The notes beneath the pieces were generated by a model that had not been told where the DNA came from, ran no database searches, and saw nothing but the letters and a program-made list of their open reading frames with translations. Positions 3,717-10,770 of a stretch of DNA of 40,262 nt are shown here, piece after piece. The DNA lies in assembly GCA_947445225.1 (NCBI GenBank), contig CANFCX010000012.1, positions 1 to 40,262 on the forward strand, written 5' to 3'. A program made the translations under genes and the position numbers. Every line of letters starts with the position of its first letter. Within the stretch, counting starts at the first letter, position 1. The stretch comes from Rhodospirillales bacterium. Lineage in GTDB: Bacteria > Pseudomonadota > Alphaproteobacteria > CACIAM-22H2.

Positions 3717-3864
3717 GCAATCTGGGAAGCCACTCAGGCTCCCGGTCCAAGGTCCGGGTCTCGTTCGGGCAGGTTTTTTTAGCATTTTGGGCTGAAATTC
3801 CCAAAATCGACCCCGCGAGTCTTCGACTCCCTTCGCTAAGGGGAGGGGCGCCGCCGGGCGCGCC

Positions 3865-4695
3865 TTAGGCCTTGTCGATCTGCTGCGCCGCTTCCGCCGC
3901 GAGCGCCCGCAGAACGTTCTCGGGCACGCGACCGACAAAAGCATAGGAATAGCCGTCTTTTCGCCAATACAGCGTATTGACGCCCGCCCGCTGATCGAAC
4001 AAGGGGTTGTGATCCCTCAAGACCGCGCGTGCGATGACCAGGGCGACGATCTCACCTTCCACCGTCACATAGACAAATTGCGCGGCCGGGAAGCCACCGA
4101 TGACCAGGGCGCGGCCGCCTTGAAGGATCAATCCCCGTTCGGCCAAATTGGGCACGTGCAAATCGCGCTCGAGCCGGCGGCTGAACCAATTCTCCAATTC
4201 AGGGAGGTCGGCGCCGGAGAGGTCGACGAGTTGGCGTTCGTCCTTGGTGAAAACGCGCGTATAGAGGTTGTAGGTGCCGACGACATTGTCGAGCCAACGA
4301 TTATTGGCCTCGGCGCTCGTGATGGCCAGTGTATCCCTGGTGCCGGAATAGTCCTCGCCGTAATACAGGGTGCCGAGACCAATCGCCAAGGCGGCGATTC
4401 CCGCGGCGAGCGCCGGCGCGAAACGGCGCGAGTTGGAAAAAATCGGGCGACGCCGCGGTCCATTAACAGCGGCGAGAAGACGTTCGGGTACGGGTTCATG
4501 AAGGGCCGGCGCAAACGCGGCGCGGACCACAATGCTCGCGTCGCGCAATAGGCGAACCTTGGCGGCGGTCGCGGCATCGTCCGCAATCGCCGCTTCGATT
4601 TCCCGCGCCGTTGCCGAATCGAGCTCGCCGTCGACATACGCCATCAACAGCGTATCGTCGAATCGCCGCGGCCGTGTTTCACCCGAGTTTGACAA
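3865..4695 (-). CDS. membrane anti-sigma factor partner of the ECF sigma
   Basis: A 276-residue protein with a short N-terminal cytoplasmic domain (DDTLLMAYVDGELD, about 13-26), one membrane helix at about 93-111 (FAPALAAGIAALAIGLGTL) and an extracytoplasmic domain of about 165 residues. The start of the N domain matches the ASD fold of ECF anti-sigma factors, but the protein has no Cys at all, so it lacks the HxxxCxxC zinc motif. The gene overlaps the sigma gene by 17 bases and is translated after it, the usual sigma/anti-sigma arrangement. The outer domain may sense an envelope or oxidative signal by direct contact or proteolysis. The signal is unknown. Confidence 0.85.
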   Translation of the reverse strand: MSNSGETRPRRFDDTLLMAYVDGELDSATAREIEAAIADDAATAAKVRLLRDASIVVRAAFAPALHEPVPERLLAAVNGPRRRPIFSNSRRFAPALAAGIAALAIGLGTLYYGEDYSGTRDTLAITSAEANNRWLDNVVGTYNLYTRVFTKDERQLVDLSGADLPELENWFSRRLERDLHVPNLAERGLILQGGRALVIGGFPAAQFVYVTVEGEIVALVIARAVLRDHNPLFDQRAGVNTLYWRKDGYSYAFVGRVPENVLRALAAEAAQQIDKA

Positions 4696-5209
4696 CTTTG
4701 TCGTCTCCCTTGTCGCCGTCCGCCGCCGCCTTGGTCACCGCCAAACGCGCCCGCGCCAACCTGCTCATGATCGTGCCGATGGGCACGCCTAAAATCTCCG
4801 CCGCCTCTTTGTAGGTCGCACCTTCCACCGACACGAGCAGCAACACGATGCGTTGATCGTCCGGCAGACGGGCCACCGTCCGCCGAACTTCGTCCAGGGT
4901 CAGCCTCGCCTCGACCCGCCTTTCGCCATCCTCGGCCAGATGGGCCGAGGCAGTTTCAAGATCGCCAACCCAATCACCCCCCCGTACCTTCGCGGCCCGC
5001 CGCTGATCCAGCCAGATCGTCTGGATGATCCGGAACATCCAGCTATCGAGGCGGGTTCCCGGCGTCCATTGATCCAGTCTCGACAACGCCCGTTCGCAGG
5101 CGGCCTGGACAAGATCGTCGGCCTGGTCCACCGACCGCGACAAACCGCGCGCAAAGCGCCGAAGCCGCGGGAGGAGAGCAACAAGCTGCGACCGCGCCGA
5201 GTCGCTCAC
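4679..5209 (-). CDS. ECF (sigma70 group 4) RNA polymerase sigma factor
   Basis: 176 residues from the chosen start. Region 2 is seen in DQADDLVQAACERALSRLDQW and SWMFRIIQTIWLDQRR. Region 4 is seen in LPDDQRIVLLLVSVEGATYKE followed by AAEILGVPIGTIMSRLARAR. The two are joined by an ordinary short linker with no extra domain. The reading frame is open to a GTG at 5230, but the GTG at 5209 is preferred. It has an AAGG ribosome site, and the predicted ECF promoter has its -10 at 5244-5247, which would leave almost no leader for the upstream GTG. The gene is divergent from a small exported protein with a matching promoter, so self-activation and activation of that gene are likely. Confidence 0.92.
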   Translation of the reverse strand: MSDSARSQLVALLPRLRRFARGLSRSVDQADDLVQAACERALSRLDQWTPGTRLDSWMFRIIQTIWLDQRRAAKVRGGDWVGDLETASAHLAEDGERRVEARLTLDEVRRTVARLPDDQRIVLLLVSVEGATYKEAAEILGVPIGTIMSRLARARLAVTKAAADGDKGDDKVVKLG

Positions 5210-5243
5210 GACGGCAGACCTTGTTGCCACGTTCGATGATTAC

Positions 5244-5268
5244 AACGATTGGGGGACGCGGTTATTCC
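5244..5268 (-). promoter_or_regulatory. predicted ECF-sigma promoter of the sigma/anti-sigma operon
   Basis: On the minus strand GGAAT (5268-5264) is followed after 16 bases by CGTT (5247-5244). This is the GGAAC-N16/17-CGTT architecture known for several alphaproteobacterial ECF sigmas. The expected transcription start, near 5237, gives a short leader to the GTG at 5209. The same sequence pair occurs facing the other way 50 bases on. Confidence 0.6.
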
Positions 5269-5315
5269 ACGGGCAAAGTGTCTTTGGGGAATATTTTTCA
5301 CCAGGGGTCCGGAGT

Positions 5316-5341
5316 GGAATTTCCGCAAGTTTGCGCCCGTT
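5316..5341 (+). promoter_or_regulatory. predicted ECF-sigma promoter of the small exported protein gene
   Basis: GGAAT (5316-5320), 17 bases, then CGTT (5338-5341), about 55 bases upstream of the ATG at 5396. The elements are the same as in the opposing promoter. Two facing copies in a 186-base intergenic region are unlikely by chance and suggest a shared sigma factor, most simply the one encoded here. Confidence 0.6.
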
Positions 5342-5395
5342 ATCAACGCGGCCTGCACATGCACGCCGATGAAACCCCAAAGAAGGAGAATTGTC

Positions 5396-5635
5396 ATGAC
5401 AAAGTTTGCCGCCGCCCTTGCCCTGGTGCTCGGACTTGGCTTCGCGACCGCGCCGGCCTACGCCGATTGCGCGGGCGACATTACCACCGTCAAGGCCGCC
5501 TGGGACAAGGCCACCGACAAGGCGAAGAAGGATGCCGCGATGCCGCACTATCAGACCGCCGAAAAGGCGCTGAAGGACAAGAATGAAAAGGCCTGCGTCG
5601 ACGCTCTCGACAAAGCCCGCACCGCGATGAAGTAA
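5396..5635 (+). CDS. small exported two-cysteine helical protein, function unknown
   Basis: 79 residues. Residues 1-23 form a clear signal peptide (MTKFAAALALVLGLGFATAP, cleavage after AYA), leaving a mature protein of about 56 residues. The mature part starts DCAGD and has two lysine- and alanine-rich amphipathic helices. It has just two cysteines, C25 and C67, placed so that a disulfide could tie the N-terminus to the second helix. AAGGAG seven bases before the ATG at 5396 fixes the start, although the frame is open further upstream. I do not recognise the family. The divergent position and matching ECF promoter make it a likely target of the adjacent sigma factor, perhaps an envelope stress effector or chaperone-like protein. 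That role is inference. Confidence 0.8.
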   Translation: MTKFAAALALVLGLGFATAPAYADCAGDITTVKAAWDKATDKAKKDAAMPHYQTAEKALKDKNEKACVDALDKARTAMK

Positions 5636-5674
5636 TCCGGCGCCGCCGCGATCGGCGAGTCGGAAGGATGAAAG

Positions 5675-5703
5675 GATCGCGGGTGGCGCTGCTACCCGCG
5701 ATC
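5675..5703. terminator. bidirectional hairpin between convergent genes
   Basis: A perfect 10-base inverted repeat (GATCGCGGGT and ACCCGCGATC, 9-base loop) lies between the small exported protein gene and the TPR/GT41 gene, and covers the latter's stop codon. Neither side has a real T tract, so it may act as a weak terminator or an mRNA 3' stabiliser. Confidence 0.4.
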
Positions 5704-7921
5704 ACTTCCGAAGATTGGAGCCCGAGGCGGCTTCCAAGAGTAGACCCTCGAAATCGCGCACGACCTGGATGTCCTCGTAGAGGACGACGCTGCGCTCGGT
5801 GATTTTCTTACGCAGGCCCTCGCGCCAGTCGCGATCGGTGCCCAGGCGGATCGCGAGATCGACATAGGTCTTGGCGCCGTCCGCGATCAAGTCGAGCATG
5901 TTCATCTTGCGGTAAAGCGCATAGGTGATGCGCGAACGCAGGAAACCTCCGGGAAGTGTGACGATTGGCGCGCCCATCGCGAATGCCTCGAGCGATGTGT
6001 TGCCGCCCCCGAAATGCGGCGGATCGAGGATCACATCCGCCGCCCGCAGCAGATCGAGAAATTCCGTGAGCTTCAATTGCGGCGTGAAAACCACGCGGTC
6101 GACGTTTTCGGGAAACGCGCGGGCGAAACGGTCGCGGATCTGCCGCGCCTGGTGGCCGGTGCGATCCTGGATGAACAGAATCCTGGCGTTGCGGTCGCGA
6201 TCGAGGATGGCGCCGATCAGGGGGTCGAAATCCGGATGCAGCTTGAACAGGCTCTGCGGGCAGGCGTAGAGGGTTGCGCCGTCCGGTACCTGAAGCCACG
6301 CCCGGCCCCGCGGGTGCGCCGGCAAGGGCGGACGGTGGTAGTGGACGATGGGCGAGCGCGGCTTCAATAGGCGTTCGGTGTATTGGTCCTCGCTGCCATC
6401 GGGCTCCAGATCGCGGCTCGACAGGAAATAATCGATGTTGGGGATGCCGGTGGTGACCGGGTGGCCCCATGTCACCATTTGAACCGGGGCGAGACGCGCA
6501 AAACCCAGGAAATAGGTCATCGGCTCCATGCCGATGTCGGGATAGAACAAGACATCCAGTTCAGCCTCGCCGATCGCGCGGCGCGCATCGGTCAGCTTCG
6601 CCGGCAATCTCGCGGCCCGATCCGCCGAGGCCGCGATCGCGCTCGCCATGGCATCGGCGGGGCCGGGCAGTTGCATGACAACGACCTCGAATCGCTCGCG
6701 ATCGAGATGGGCGATCAATCCGCGATTGAGCTTGCCGATCGTGTGTTCGTAGAGGTGCCGCGAAACGAAGCCAACCCTGAGCCGCCTTCCCGCTGTTTGT
6801 CGCGGGGAAACGCAGTGCGGCGCGGTCCAGTCGAGCGACGGACAGGATTTCAGGTACAGGCGCGAAGCCTTTTGCTGGAGTTCGCGGTCGTTCAGGCCCT
6901 GATAGGCCAGATAGAATTGGGTGTGGCCGACTTCCGTCTCCGGCGCCGAAAGATTTAGGTCTTCGCGCGCCAACCCGTCGAGATTCTCGCCATACCGCCG
7001 CCGCGATTCGGCGATTTCCGCCGGCGAATCGTAGATCGCGGGAAGCAGGGTGGCGAGGCGAATGCGCAGTCCGGCGTCGGGCTTGATCGCCAGGGCCTGA
7101 CGGTAGGTTTCCCGTGCCTGGTCCAGCCGACCGAGGGCGGCGAGCGTGGTGCCGAGATCGCCATAGGTCTCGATTTGGCCGGGAGCCAAGGTGATGGCTT
7201 GGCGAAAGGCGGCGACGGCCTCTTCGATTTTGCCCAAATCCTGAAGGGCGGCGCCTTTATTCTTGTAGGCCTCGGCATAACCCGGCTCCAGAGCCAATGC
7301 TTTTTCCAGGCAGACGATGGCCTCGGCGGGCCGGCCAAGCTGGCGAAGCGCGGCCGCCAGATTGTTATGAGCCTGGGCGAAACCGGGCTTCAGCGCGATC
7401 GCCCGACGATAGGCGGCGGCCGCCTCCTCGTGGCGCGACACGGCTTGCAGGGCGTTGCCGAGATTGTTGTGCGCCTCGGCGAAGGCGGGATTGATTGCGA
7501 CGACGCGAAGGTAACGGCCGATGGCCTCATCGATCCGTCCGCGCGCCTTGTCGGTATTGGCGAGATTATAGAGCGCATCGGCGTGATCCGGCGCGATCCG
7601 CAAGGCTTCCGACCAAGCCGCTGCCGCGCCGTCGATGTCCCCCCATTTTTGCAGGATGACGCCGAGATTGTAGCGATAGCCGGCATTCGACGGATCGCCG
7701 TCGGCGGCCGCGCGCAAGCGTTCGACCGCGACCTTGCCGTCGCCCTTGCGATCGGCGACGAGGCCGAGGAGTTGCAGCGCCTCCGGTGGCGCCGGGCCGA
7801 CAAGCGACCGGCAGAGCCGCTCCGCTTCGACCAAATCGCCGGCCAGAAAATGTCTGGTGGCTTCGGCCAGGATATTGGCGAGGCTGGTGTCGTGCCGCGC
7901 TGTCGGCTCGGTCATTGTCAT
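5702..7921 (-). CDS. TPR protein with C-terminal GT41 (O-GlcNAc transferase-like) domain
   Basis: 739 residues. After a short N-terminus come about eight tetratricopeptide repeats (roughly residues 20-290), recognisable by repeated units such as AHNNLGNALQAVSRHEEAAAAY. The C-terminal half resembles the SPINDLY/OGT catalytic region. It begins at RRLRVGFVSRHLYEHTIGKL and includes VQMVTWGHPVTTGIPNIDYF and, near the end, ILDPPHFGGGNTSLEAFAMG. The latter is the nucleotide-sugar binding segment. Such proteins transfer a sugar to Ser/Thr or act in surface glycosylation; donor and target are unknown. ATG 7921 or 7915 is the likely start, as the longer frame begins only with TTG. It converges on the ECF-regulated gene and is followed upstream by methyltransferase genes, a grouping typical of surface glycan modification loci. 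Confidence 0.85.
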   Translation of the reverse strand: MTMTEPTARHDTSLANILAEATRHFLAGDLVEAERLCRSLVGPAPPEALQLLGLVADRKGDGKVAVERLRAAADGDPSNAGYRYNLGVILQKWGDIDGAAAAWSEALRIAPDHADALYNLANTDKARGRIDEAIGRYLRVVAINPAFAEAHNNLGNALQAVSRHEEAAAAYRRAIALKPGFAQAHNNLAAALRQLGRPAEAIVCLEKALALEPGYAEAYKNKGAALQDLGKIEEAVAAFRQAITLAPGQIETYGDLGTTLAALGRLDQARETYRQALAIKPDAGLRIRLATLLPAIYDSPAEIAESRRRYGENLDGLAREDLNLSAPETEVGHTQFYLAYQGLNDRELQQKASRLYLKSCPSLDWTAPHCVSPRQTAGRRLRVGFVSRHLYEHTIGKLNRGLIAHLDRERFEVVVMQLPGPADAMASAIAASADRAARLPAKLTDARRAIGEAELDVLFYPDIGMEPMTYFLGFARLAPVQMVTWGHPVTTGIPNIDYFLSSRDLEPDGSEDQYTERLLKPRSPIVHYHRPPLPAHPRGRAWLQVPDGATLYACPQSLFKLHPDFDPLIGAILDRDRNARILFIQDRTGHQARQIRDRFARAFPENVDRVVFTPQLKLTEFLDLLRAADVILDPPHFGGGNTSLEAFAMGAPIVTLPGGFLRSRITYALYRKMNMLDLIADGAKTYVDLAIRLGTDRDWREGLRKKITERSVVLYEDIQVVRDFEGLLLEAASGSNLRK

Positions 7922-8040
7922 CCATGCAGGGAAAAGCCGATGCCGCGACAATGACGGCCGCTCCGGCGGACTGTCAATCGGCGGCGTCGGGCTTGCCGCG
8001 ACGCGCGAACCGCCCTATTTTCCGATCGCATCTCTTGGAG

Positions 8041-8115
8041 GCCGGCGTAGCTCAGGGGTAGAGCAGCGCATTCGTAATGCGCGGGTCGGGGGTTCAATTC
8101 CCTCCGCCGGCACCA
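8041..8115 (+). tRNA. tRNA-Thr (anticodon CGT)
   Basis: A complete 75-base cloverleaf. The acceptor stem GCCGGCG (8041-8047) pairs with CGCCGGC (8105-8111). The D arm is GCTC/GAGC. The anticodon stem GCGCA/TGCGC encloses TTCGTAA, giving anticodon CGT (reads ACG, Thr). The T loop is TTCAATT. The 3' CCA is encoded (8113-8115). A strong hairpin follows 19 bases later. No integrase gene or duplicated 3' end was seen nearby, so there is no sign that this tRNA is an occupied attachment site. Confidence 0.95.
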
Positions 8116-8134
8116 TACTACCAATGACGGCCTC

Positions 8135-8165
8135 ACCCTCGCCGCGATGTTATCGCGGTGAGGGT
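8135..8165. terminator. long hairpin between tRNA-Thr and the methyltransferase pseudogene
   Basis: ACCCTC-G-CCGCGAT pairs with ATCGCGG-T-GAGGGT around a GTT loop, a 14-pair stem with one G-T wobble. It lies 19 bases past the tRNA 3' end and covers the stop codon of the convergent gene. There is no T tract on either side, but the stem strength suggests bidirectional termination or tRNA 3' processing. Confidence 0.55.
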
Positions 8166-9297
8166 ATTCGGAATAACACCGCCCCGGCTTTCCACAGCGA
8201 CCCGAATAGTGCCGAACAGAATTCGAGGCTCGGAGTCGCCCGGGCCGAGTTTCGCAGTTCGCCGATCATCCGGCAGCCATCGATAGATCGAAGCAGATCG
8301 ACAGCCCATCGTGGGAATGTTGCCTCTCCGTTCGGTCGAACCATGCGACAGGCCTCAAAATCTAGCCTTACGTCCAGCCGCCAAGCTGGCACAAACTCTA
8401 GAAAGCGTGGGTTGGAGAAATCGAGCCGATACTCCGCCTGGTCGCGGGCGGGTTTGCATGCCACAAAACTATGCAATGAGTGCGCGGTCATTAGCGGTTC
8501 CATCGCCTCCCAGATTTTTTGTTCCGGCAGAGCGGCGATGAGTTGGCAGAGGTCTGCGGAAAAATGAAGTTCCGGGTAATACATCGCGTTATCGATCCAG
8601 CCCTGCAGGACAAGGCCAGCACCAGCCAGCAAATCCATGCAATCGGCGACCGTATAGCTACGATCTCGCCCGTGTAGGAATAAGTCGATGATGCCGGAAC
8701 TGTACCCGATATCCTCAACTTGCTTGATGGCAGCATGAATCGGGTGGCTGGTTTTGAGTTGCGCAATCAGTTTGCGCACGATCTCTACCGACCTTTCGTC
8801 CTGGGAGAGCGCGAGCGATCGGCAAAACGATTGGATCGTCTCGACGGCGAACCGACCGTACTTCGCATAGAGCATGAGCTCGATTGCGCCATCGTCTTTG
8901 AGACAACCCGCAAGGGCACGCGCACCCACCACCGGATCGGCTAGGTGATGCAGGACGCCGTCGCAGAAGATGAGATCGAACTGGGTCCGAAGCTCGGCTG
9001 CTCCCTCGGGTTGGCCAACCCGTACTTCTCTTTGAGCCGACGCTCGTTGGCCAGCGCGGCTTGGCTCACGTCGATGCCGACCACGCGGGCATGACGGTCG
9101 CCGAGGGCGAGTTGTGCGGCCTGATTGGTGCCGCATCCCGCCACGAGTATATCGATACCCTCCCAGTATTCGCGCGTCGGAAAGTAAAAAAGATAAGAGT
9201 TGTTGGACGTTGATTGTCTTAGCTCGTCGGCAGGCCTTGGGTAGGGCCAGATTTCATATTGCCTCGCGACGGCGTCGTTTAGCGGTGAGTCCTTCAT
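8150..9297 (-). pseudogene. SAM-dependent methyltransferase gene with frameshift/deletion
   Basis: Two overlapping frames make up one damaged gene. From the ATG at 9297 the first 96 residues read as a class I methyltransferase: RQYEIWPYPRP, then the SAM loop ILVAGCGTNQAAQLA and VVGIDVSQAAL, up to KYGLAN (codon 9012-9010). That frame then degenerates to a stop at 8941. The rest of the fold resumes in another frame at 9007 with EGAAELRTQFDLIFCDGVLHH and continues 285 residues to 8150. About eight codons present in the neighbouring copy (LELRQLPI) are missing at the junction, so this is a deletion with frameshift and not just a one-base error. The last 100 residues form an extra domain I do not recognise. 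If expressed, only fragments would be made unless a hybrid with the upstream copy forms. Confidence 0.75.
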
Positions 9298-9323
9298 CGG
9301 CGGGATTTCACCATCACCGGCCT

Positions 9324-9662
9324 TCAGGGCAACCGAATGACGATCGGCAACTGGCGGAGTTCAAGGTTCGAGAGGCCGTATTTCTCCTTGAGCGCGGATT
9401 CGTGACGCAGCGCCGCGCTGGTCACGTCGATGCCCAGCACCCGCGCGGTGGGATTGTGGAGCGCGATCGATGCCGCCTGGGTCGTGCCGCATCCCGCGGA
9501 GAGAATATTAAGACCCTCGGGGTACGCCGCCATGCGCGGCCAGAACTGCTGAAATGCGTTCTTTGGATCGCATACGAGCAACGGCAAGTCGTCGTTTGGC
9601 GGCGGATACGGCCATACTTCGTATTGCCGCGAAATAACGTCGTTCAGCGGGGAGTCGTTCAT
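9324..9662 (-). pseudogene. truncated upstream paralogue of the methyltransferase (N-terminal half only)
   Basis: 112 residues starting MNDSPLNDVISRQYEVWPYP, with SAM loop ILSAGCGTTQAASIA and VLGIDVTSAAL. It ends VIRLP-stop just after NLELRQLPI, where the methyltransferase fold should continue with the DLI..GVLHHL strand. It is about half identical to the N-terminus of the gene 365 bases downstream and shares its leader AAATCCCGCCG before the ATG, so the two are tandem paralogues. It lacks the second half of the Rossmann fold and is unlikely to be active alone. Joining its residue 107 (position 9342) to position 9007 of the next copy would recreate a normal family sequence. Confidence 0.7.
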
Positions 9663-9840: not shown

Positions 9841-10770
9841 ATGGCCGAACGATCCGCGAAGTGGCTGCAGGACAATGCGGCGTATCTCGAGAAAATCTCG
9901 AACCTGTCCTTCGAGAACCGGCGATGGAACAAGCGGTCCTTGGCCGAAACCCGGGATTTCCTAGGGCCCTGGCGGCACAACATCCGGCTGCCTTTCGGCG
10001 TCTACACCGCCCATGTGCCCGATCATTACCCGTCGCACCAGGTCATCATGCGGGTGATCAACCATCACCTCGATGGCGGATTCGCCGGGAAGCGGATCGT
10101 CGATATCGGGTGCCTCGAAGCGTATTTCGCGGCCGAATGCGCCCTGCAGGGCGCCGAGGTGCTGGGCATCGACGGCAAGGCGATCAACATCAAAAAATGC
10201 GAATTCGTGAAGTCGGCGCTGGGCATCGAGACTATTTCCTTCGCCGAGGACGACGCCATGAACGTCACGCGGCGAAAATACGGCAGGTTCGACGTCTCGC
10301 TCGTACTCGGTCTCCTCTATCACCTCGACGATCCCTTCACCTTCCTGAAGAACATGGCGGATCTGACAGAAGAATTCATGGTTTTGGAAACCCATGTCGG
10401 CCTTCCCGGCACGCCGAGGACGCTGCGCGGCGGGTGGCGGCCCGAATTGTCGGGTATGAAACGTTTCAAACGCGGCGGGCGCACCTACGAGGGCCGGACC
10501 TATCGCGAATTCGATCGCGGCACGAGCCAGGTGTTCAAGGACCTGTCGTCCACGGCCTCGCTCACGAACGACCTCTCGATCTGGCTCAGTGATGAATCGC
10601 TCGTGGACCTGTTGCACGATGTCGGATTCGAGGCGACCTTCCGCTACATGTTCCCGCGCGACCGCGAAGATTTGTGGTGGTCGGACATGCGGCGCGACGC
10701 CCGCGTGTTGATGGTCGCGGTCAGAAAACAAAGGCCGCTTCGCTCGCGCATCTTTGGCAAAGCGCGGTGA
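9841..10770 (+). CDS. class I SAM-dependent methyltransferase (CmoB/DUF1698-like)
   Basis: 309 residues. The methyltransferase core begins about residue 70: KRIVDIGCLEAYFAAECALQ (motif I), then EVLGIDGKAINIKKCEFVKS, an acidic EDDAMNV, and FDVSLVLGLLYHLDDPFTFL (motif IV and the following helix). The style matches the CmoB-like group, which includes tRNA and glycan/lipid modifiers; the carboxy-SAM binding set of true CmoB was not verified. ATG 9841 with GGAG upstream is preferred over ATG 9820. It is divergent from the broken methyltransferase pair and close to a GT41 enzyme, which favours a glycan or surface target. That is inference. Confidence 0.8.
   Translation: MAERSAKWLQDNAAYLEKISNLSFENRRWNKRSLAETRDFLGPWRHNIRLPFGVYTAHVPDHYPSHQVIMRVINHHLDGGFAGKRIVDIGCLEAYFAAECALQGAEVLGIDGKAINIKKCEFVKSALGIETISFAEDDAMNVTRRKYGRFDVSLVLGLLYHLDDPFTFLKNMADLTEEFMVLETHVGLPGTPRTLRGGWRPELSGMKRFKRGGRTYEGRTYREFDRGTSQVFKDLSSTASLTNDLSIWLSDESLVDLLHDVGFEATFRYMFPRDREDLWWSDMRRDARVLMVAVRKQRPLRSRIFGKAR

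Follow-up and report, generated by a model that had tools for sequence, protein, structure and literature searches.

A probable broken tandem pair of SAM-dependent methyltransferase genes in a Rhodospirillales bacterium

Anatomy of the methyltransferase locus

The window, which is the whole 40,262-nt stretch of contig CANFCX010000012.1 that we analysed, carries on its minus strand three pieces of a SAM-dependent methyltransferase, which we call N1, N2, and C in the order in which they would be read (Table 1). We placed these pieces on a family profile of ~405 columns that was built from five full-length relatives. N1 covers family columns 1–112 and is followed by the residues VIRLP and a stop codon (coding 9662–9327, TGA 9326–9324). 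The stretch NLELRQLPI within N1 is in the family reading frame, with the codon of its final I at 9344–9342. N2 stays in frame through KYGLAN (N codon at 9012–9010), after which two bases, CC at 9009–9008, lead into C. The first codon of the C frame is GAG (9007–9005), where the sequence EGAAELR begins, and the frame stays open over 285 codons with no internal stop, ending with the residues LFRIPSPR (coding 9007–8153, stop 8152–8150). C has no start at the joint; in its frame, ATG first occurs at 9136, inside N2 and out of N2's frame. The I codon of N1 and the C frame are thus 334 bases apart (9341–9008) on the DNA, and on the family profile the end of N1 (column 112) and the start of C (column 113) abut with no gap and no overlap.

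These positions are as originally predicted from the letters alone, and so are 1) the loss of a stretch after KYGLAN with resumption in another frame at EGAAELR, a loss that we measure as net 22 nt, and 2) the uninterrupted sequence that would result from an N1–C fusion. Two other elements of the original prediction need revision. The upstream copy was thought to stop right after LPI, but the five further codons for VIRLP, which look like a tail, precede its stop. The locus was also described as two half-genes, but the downstream copy has its whole N-half and whole C-half minus the net 22 nt (residues LELRQLPI), and it is the upstream copy that is short of ~277 codons from its middle, if both copies are equal in length. 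We therefore read the downstream copy as a frameshifted, nearly complete gene rather than as a half-gene.

The starts of the two copies are alike upstream of the coding sequence as well. The 10 bases before the ATG of N2 are the same as those before N1 (10/10), 20/25 are alike over 25 bases, and a direct repeat (D1) of 99 nt at 75% was found. At the other end of the locus, a strong predicted hairpin sits between the convergent C gene and tRNA-Thr and has no clear T run.

Table 1. Positions of the methyltransferase pieces and of neighbouring features in the window
Feature	Position	Strand	Basis
TPR/GT41-like glycosyltransferase, neighbour	5702–7951		
tRNA-Thr (CGT), convergent neighbour	8041–8115	+	ARAGORN
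Hairpin spanning the C-frame stop	8118–8170	−	Fold −26.8 kcal/mol, z −4.97 vs 200 shuffles
C, downstream copy, C-terminal half (columns 113–404)	8150–9007	−	Profile match 271 bits
Joint AAC CC GAG, net −22 nt (columns 105–112) with frame shift	9007–9010	−	Family codon table, columns 103–118
N2, downstream copy, N-terminal half (columns 1–104)	9010–9297	−	Profile match 117 bits; 53/90 residues like N1
Spacer, 26 nt, with leader of the downstream copy	9298–9323	−	Leader comparison; direct repeat D1
VIRLP, candidate C-terminal tail of the upstream copy	9327–9341	−	Tail pattern; relatives' tails
N1, upstream copy with internal deletion	9324–9662	−	Profile match 121 bits, columns 1–113; ORF 112 aa
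Another methyltransferase, neighbour	9841–10767		

Family membership, age, and state of the copies

The profile scores of all three pieces exceed chance, and N1, N2, and C are members of the SAM-dependent methyltransferase family by profile match over both halves. Against Pfam and NCBIfam, weak matches to general SAM methyltransferase models were obtained for the pieces, with no named specific family reaching its cut-off. A literature search at the level of titles and summaries found no paper on this methyltransferase family. No single uninterrupted frame runs over all family columns, N2 and C being in different frames with columns 105–112 absent, and we read the locus as a broken member of the family rather than a working one. 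When compared to intact homologues, both copies are disrupted in the manner of pseudogenes, copy 1 by an internal loss and copy 2 by the 22-nt net loss with its frameshift. We presume that function is lost and that neither copy yields an active enzyme, because N1 is without all that follows the initial portion of the SAM-binding fold, and because the frame of the downstream product is interrupted.

As neighbouring homologues in the same orientation with a repeated leader, N1 and N2 have the arrangement of a tandem duplication. Besides the residues compared in Table 1, they share 63% of bases and 15/27 four-fold sites, a divergence which indicates that the duplication is old. To see which of N1 and N2 goes with C, we built trees from 25 rows each, picked from the 90-odd aligned members to span the groups. 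In the N-half tree, N1 and N2 are sisters (95/88) and stand beside copy A of the same-genus genome G001 (86/82). In the C-half tree, C groups with the C-half of genome G009 (86/88). The branch lengths are 1.27 for N1, 0.44 for N2, and 1.25 for C, values that come from different columns and with N1 flagged as a long branch. The long N1 and C branches could hint at a common history, although the hint is weak and not decisive.

To gauge decay, we looked at the columns that at least 90% of 95 full-length members conserve, of which 29/33 are retained by N1, 27/31 by N2 (two more being gaps), and 59/71 by C. The corresponding counts are 31–32/33 and 63–65 of 70–71 for the two G001 copies and G005, and 61/70 for the C-half of G009, while the intact G021 and G022 keep only 50/71 and 53/71 of the C-part columns, below C itself. 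Erosion in N1, N2, and C thus appears mild at most. The breakage is probably recent relative to the duplication since the C frame has no stop over its 285 codons. Third-position G+C (0.78 for N1, 0.70 for N2, and 0.64 for C) does not clearly point to decay or to a foreign origin when set against the 0.63–0.83 of 13 other frames of the window.

The reading of the 334 bases depends on VIRLP. Near relatives have the tails FVRLPAPS..., LFRIPAAG, and VVLRLPTAATR, and C has its own LFRIPSPR. The pattern hydrophobic-hydrophobic-R-[LI]-P within the last 13 residues occurs at 2 of the 1034 six-frame stops of the window, which are those of N1 and C. However, the same exact pattern is found near the end of only 3/96 members of the whole family, and VIRLP is only five residues long. 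We infer that VIRLP is encoded by the final codons of the upstream gene. If so, N1 would be a gene with an internal deletion, and the putative 334-base module would be a normal tandem-pair junction, most likely made of the tail of gene 1, a spacer with a leader, and the head of gene 2. The seamless N1–C join is itself partly trivial since equivalent columns join any two members of one family; it would follow from homology plus one real coincidence of deletion ends.

Missing parts and tandem copies in related genomes

We searched the organism's own genome, a draft of 157 contigs that is 97.5% complete, for the missing parts. C found itself and one 38% paralogue, N1 found only itself and N2, and N2 found, besides itself and N1, one 34% match on contig C53. 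No C-half for N1 was found elsewhere in the assembly, although an unbinned contig could still carry one. Nor did the 157 contigs hold further near-identical donor segments of the kind expected for silent cassettes. That no close copy turned up elsewhere counts against the presence of a donor or cassette, and equally against copy 1 having an unplaced remainder. The proposed role of the locus as a reservoir for sequence variation finds no support either, near-identical repeated segments being absent from the assembly, and none of our observations favours the suggested surface-modifying role of the enzyme.

Homologues of C were detected in 33/61 genomes at E 1e-3, and the full-length profile matched in 16/23 genomes of the taxonomic family at E 1e-40, the organism's own genome being counted in both. 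In G001, contig C15 carries two full-length tandem copies (3850–5115 and 5147–6352) that are 31 nt apart, have 36/50 bases alike before their starts, and are mutually 50% identical in protein. This pair resembles that of the window in belonging to the same family, in its head-to-tail order, in its short spacer, and in its repeated leader. It differs in that both copies are whole, with no stop and all blocks present, and in having other neighbours. Since the site differs, we regard the G001 pair as a parallel rather than a direct ancestor. Two full-length genes in another strain were to count against the original prediction, and such a pair does exist within the genus, although the species and the chromosomal site are different. 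The inserted N-terminal module that had been proposed fits less well with this comparison, as the apparent order tail-spacer-leader-head between N1 and C matches that of the intact G001 pair.

Attempts to place the locus by synteny gave no common site. Homologues of the neighbouring methyltransferase at 9841–10767 (56% identical, in the same-genus genomes G001 and G002) adjoin other genes, the neighbours of the G001 tandem pair do not match those of the window, and the TPR glycosyltransferase has many paralogues and pointed to no common locus.

Two or three family genes are present at 8 of the 78 loci listed, among which are many from Mycobacterium and many from draft metagenome genomes. In Mycobacterium helveticum (L116), a C-terminal remnant (4187–4645, plus strand) lies just upstream of a full-length copy. 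As in the window, a partial copy adjoins another family copy, but here the remnant covers columns 279–332 and its neighbour is whole. We read it as another decayed tandem copy. Among the 83 other loci that we scanned, no second remnant of this kind was seen, if weak matches to paralogues and a fragment at a contig end are disregarded. One of the eight multi-copy loci, from Mycobacterium (L135, 3264–5879, plus strand), has two family copies fused head to tail in one open frame of ~870 codons. Three loci (L112, L124, and L178) are titled as Bifidobacterium breve MAG; their copies resemble those of other Actinomycetota drafts, and the titles may be wrong.

How the pair may have been broken

We consider it probable that the locus is an old tandem methyltransferase pair in which both copies were broken by two separate deletions. 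An old tandem duplication of the gene would have been followed, in the upstream copy, by one internal deletion of ~830 nt joining codon 107 (LPI) to the gene's own last codons, VIRLP-stop. In the downstream copy, a net 22-nt deletion would have removed the eight residues LELRQLPI and shifted the frame. What remains of the tail-spacer-leader-head junction would then lie between the LPI of N1 and the C frame. The anatomy, the family membership, the tandem pairs of relatives, and the absence of anything close to the missing parts from the rest of the assembly are direct observations; that the deletions were separate and of these sizes is inferred. We favour two deletions in a tandem pair because of 1) the order of elements between the starts and the alike leaders of N1 and N2, 2) the full-length G001 pair, the multi-copy loci, and the L116 remnant, 3) the sister grouping of N1 and N2 and the losses of conserved columns in all three pieces, somewhat below their nearest relatives, and 4) the absence of an N1 C-half from the rest of the genome. 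Against it stand the coinciding deletion ends, the shortness of VIRLP, the mild erosion of C and its open frame, and the different site in G001. A frameshifting small deletion and a larger internal deletion in a redundant copy are features shared with bacterial pseudogenes that arise by small and internal deletions (the subject of The Extinction Dynamics of Bacterial Pseudogenes, PMC2916853). The present locus differs in that adjacent copies each have a deletion end at one homologous position.

No other observation argues as strongly for a linked event as this coincidence of ends. When ends were drawn at random, 0.25% of trials brought the left end of the copy 1 deletion within 1 nt of the right end of the copy 2 deletion, and ~0.9% did so for any of the four end pairs, frequencies that are no p-value as the finding was chosen for its match. 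The shared break position is a well conserved DNA block, CCGATCGA (LPIE), and contigs of two other genomes end at the same block at columns 111–112 (L085 at 3221, the gene-strand start,/L111 of G009, and L164 at 1). Because two deletion ends coincide, we keep as a rival, though an unlikely one, a single linked rearrangement, in which both paralogues broke at this block and the released fragment, trimmed at both ends, was rejoined between N1 and C. The trimming would have cost copy 1 its C-half and removed 22 nt from copy 2, leaving a tail-leader-head fragment inserted into an N1–C gene, an outcome close to the module insertion first proposed. The abutting columns 112 and 113, the rarity of such a meeting between separate random deletions, the conservation of the break position with the two contig ends found there, and, as a weak hint, the long N1 and C branches beside the short N2 branch would all be in keeping with it. 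However, it requires two breaks and a rejoining in which the inner piece alone was trimmed, and no donor copy exists elsewhere in the assembly. In addition, only 2/14 tandem paralogue pairs have their longest exact shared run at the block, and the branch lengths carry the caveats given above. Of the two origins first offered, chance deletions or module insertion/shuffling, the deletions fit best and insertion fits less well, with a linked rearrangement as the lesser rival.

Contig ends at the block also bear on a possible fault of assembly, which we find rather doubtful: two longer copies would exist in reality, their pieces having been dropped or misplaced at a word common to the paralogues. 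The genome is indeed a draft in many contigs, the 22 nt lost from copy 2 are the block kept by copy 1, as if a repeat had been used once, and the same two members (L085/L111 of G009, and L164) have contigs that end there. Yet the C-half of copy 1 is absent from all other contigs, the N1 and N2 DNA is only 63% alike, and the differing tails VIRLP and LFRIPSPR make a long exact repeat reaching both ends unlikely. No second assembly path was found at the contig end of G009 either. Also in G009 (L086, 6652–6756), the N-half runs into unrelated sequence after AGCGAN near a contig end, with its C-half on another contig, perhaps through an insertion in the gene.

It is highly improbable that the arrangement works as it stands, be it as an N1+C split enzyme, an N2–C frameshift product, or a store of alternative N-termini: the open 285-codon C frame and the exact match between the N1 end and the C start in the family alignment speak for it, but an N2–C product would be without eight residues kept by every other aligned homologue covering the stretch, no classical slippery heptamer was seen by eye at the joint, C has no start there, and the near-identical repeats needed for shuffling were not found in the assembly.

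If the rearrangement was a linked one, it would point to a fixed joint in these enzymes where N- and C-halves swap. We think there is little chance of a still broader version, in which the CCGATCGA block would be a preferred point of breaking and joining in tandem arrays where N- and C-halves are swapped, the window a failed exchange in one rearrangement, and the two contig ends traces of this in assemblies. Most likely, the locus reflects ordinary gene decay. Taken alone it matters little, beyond correcting the reading from an inserted module to a tandem pair that was probably broken by deletions, and it would be one more case of birth and death among tandemly arrayed methyltransferases.
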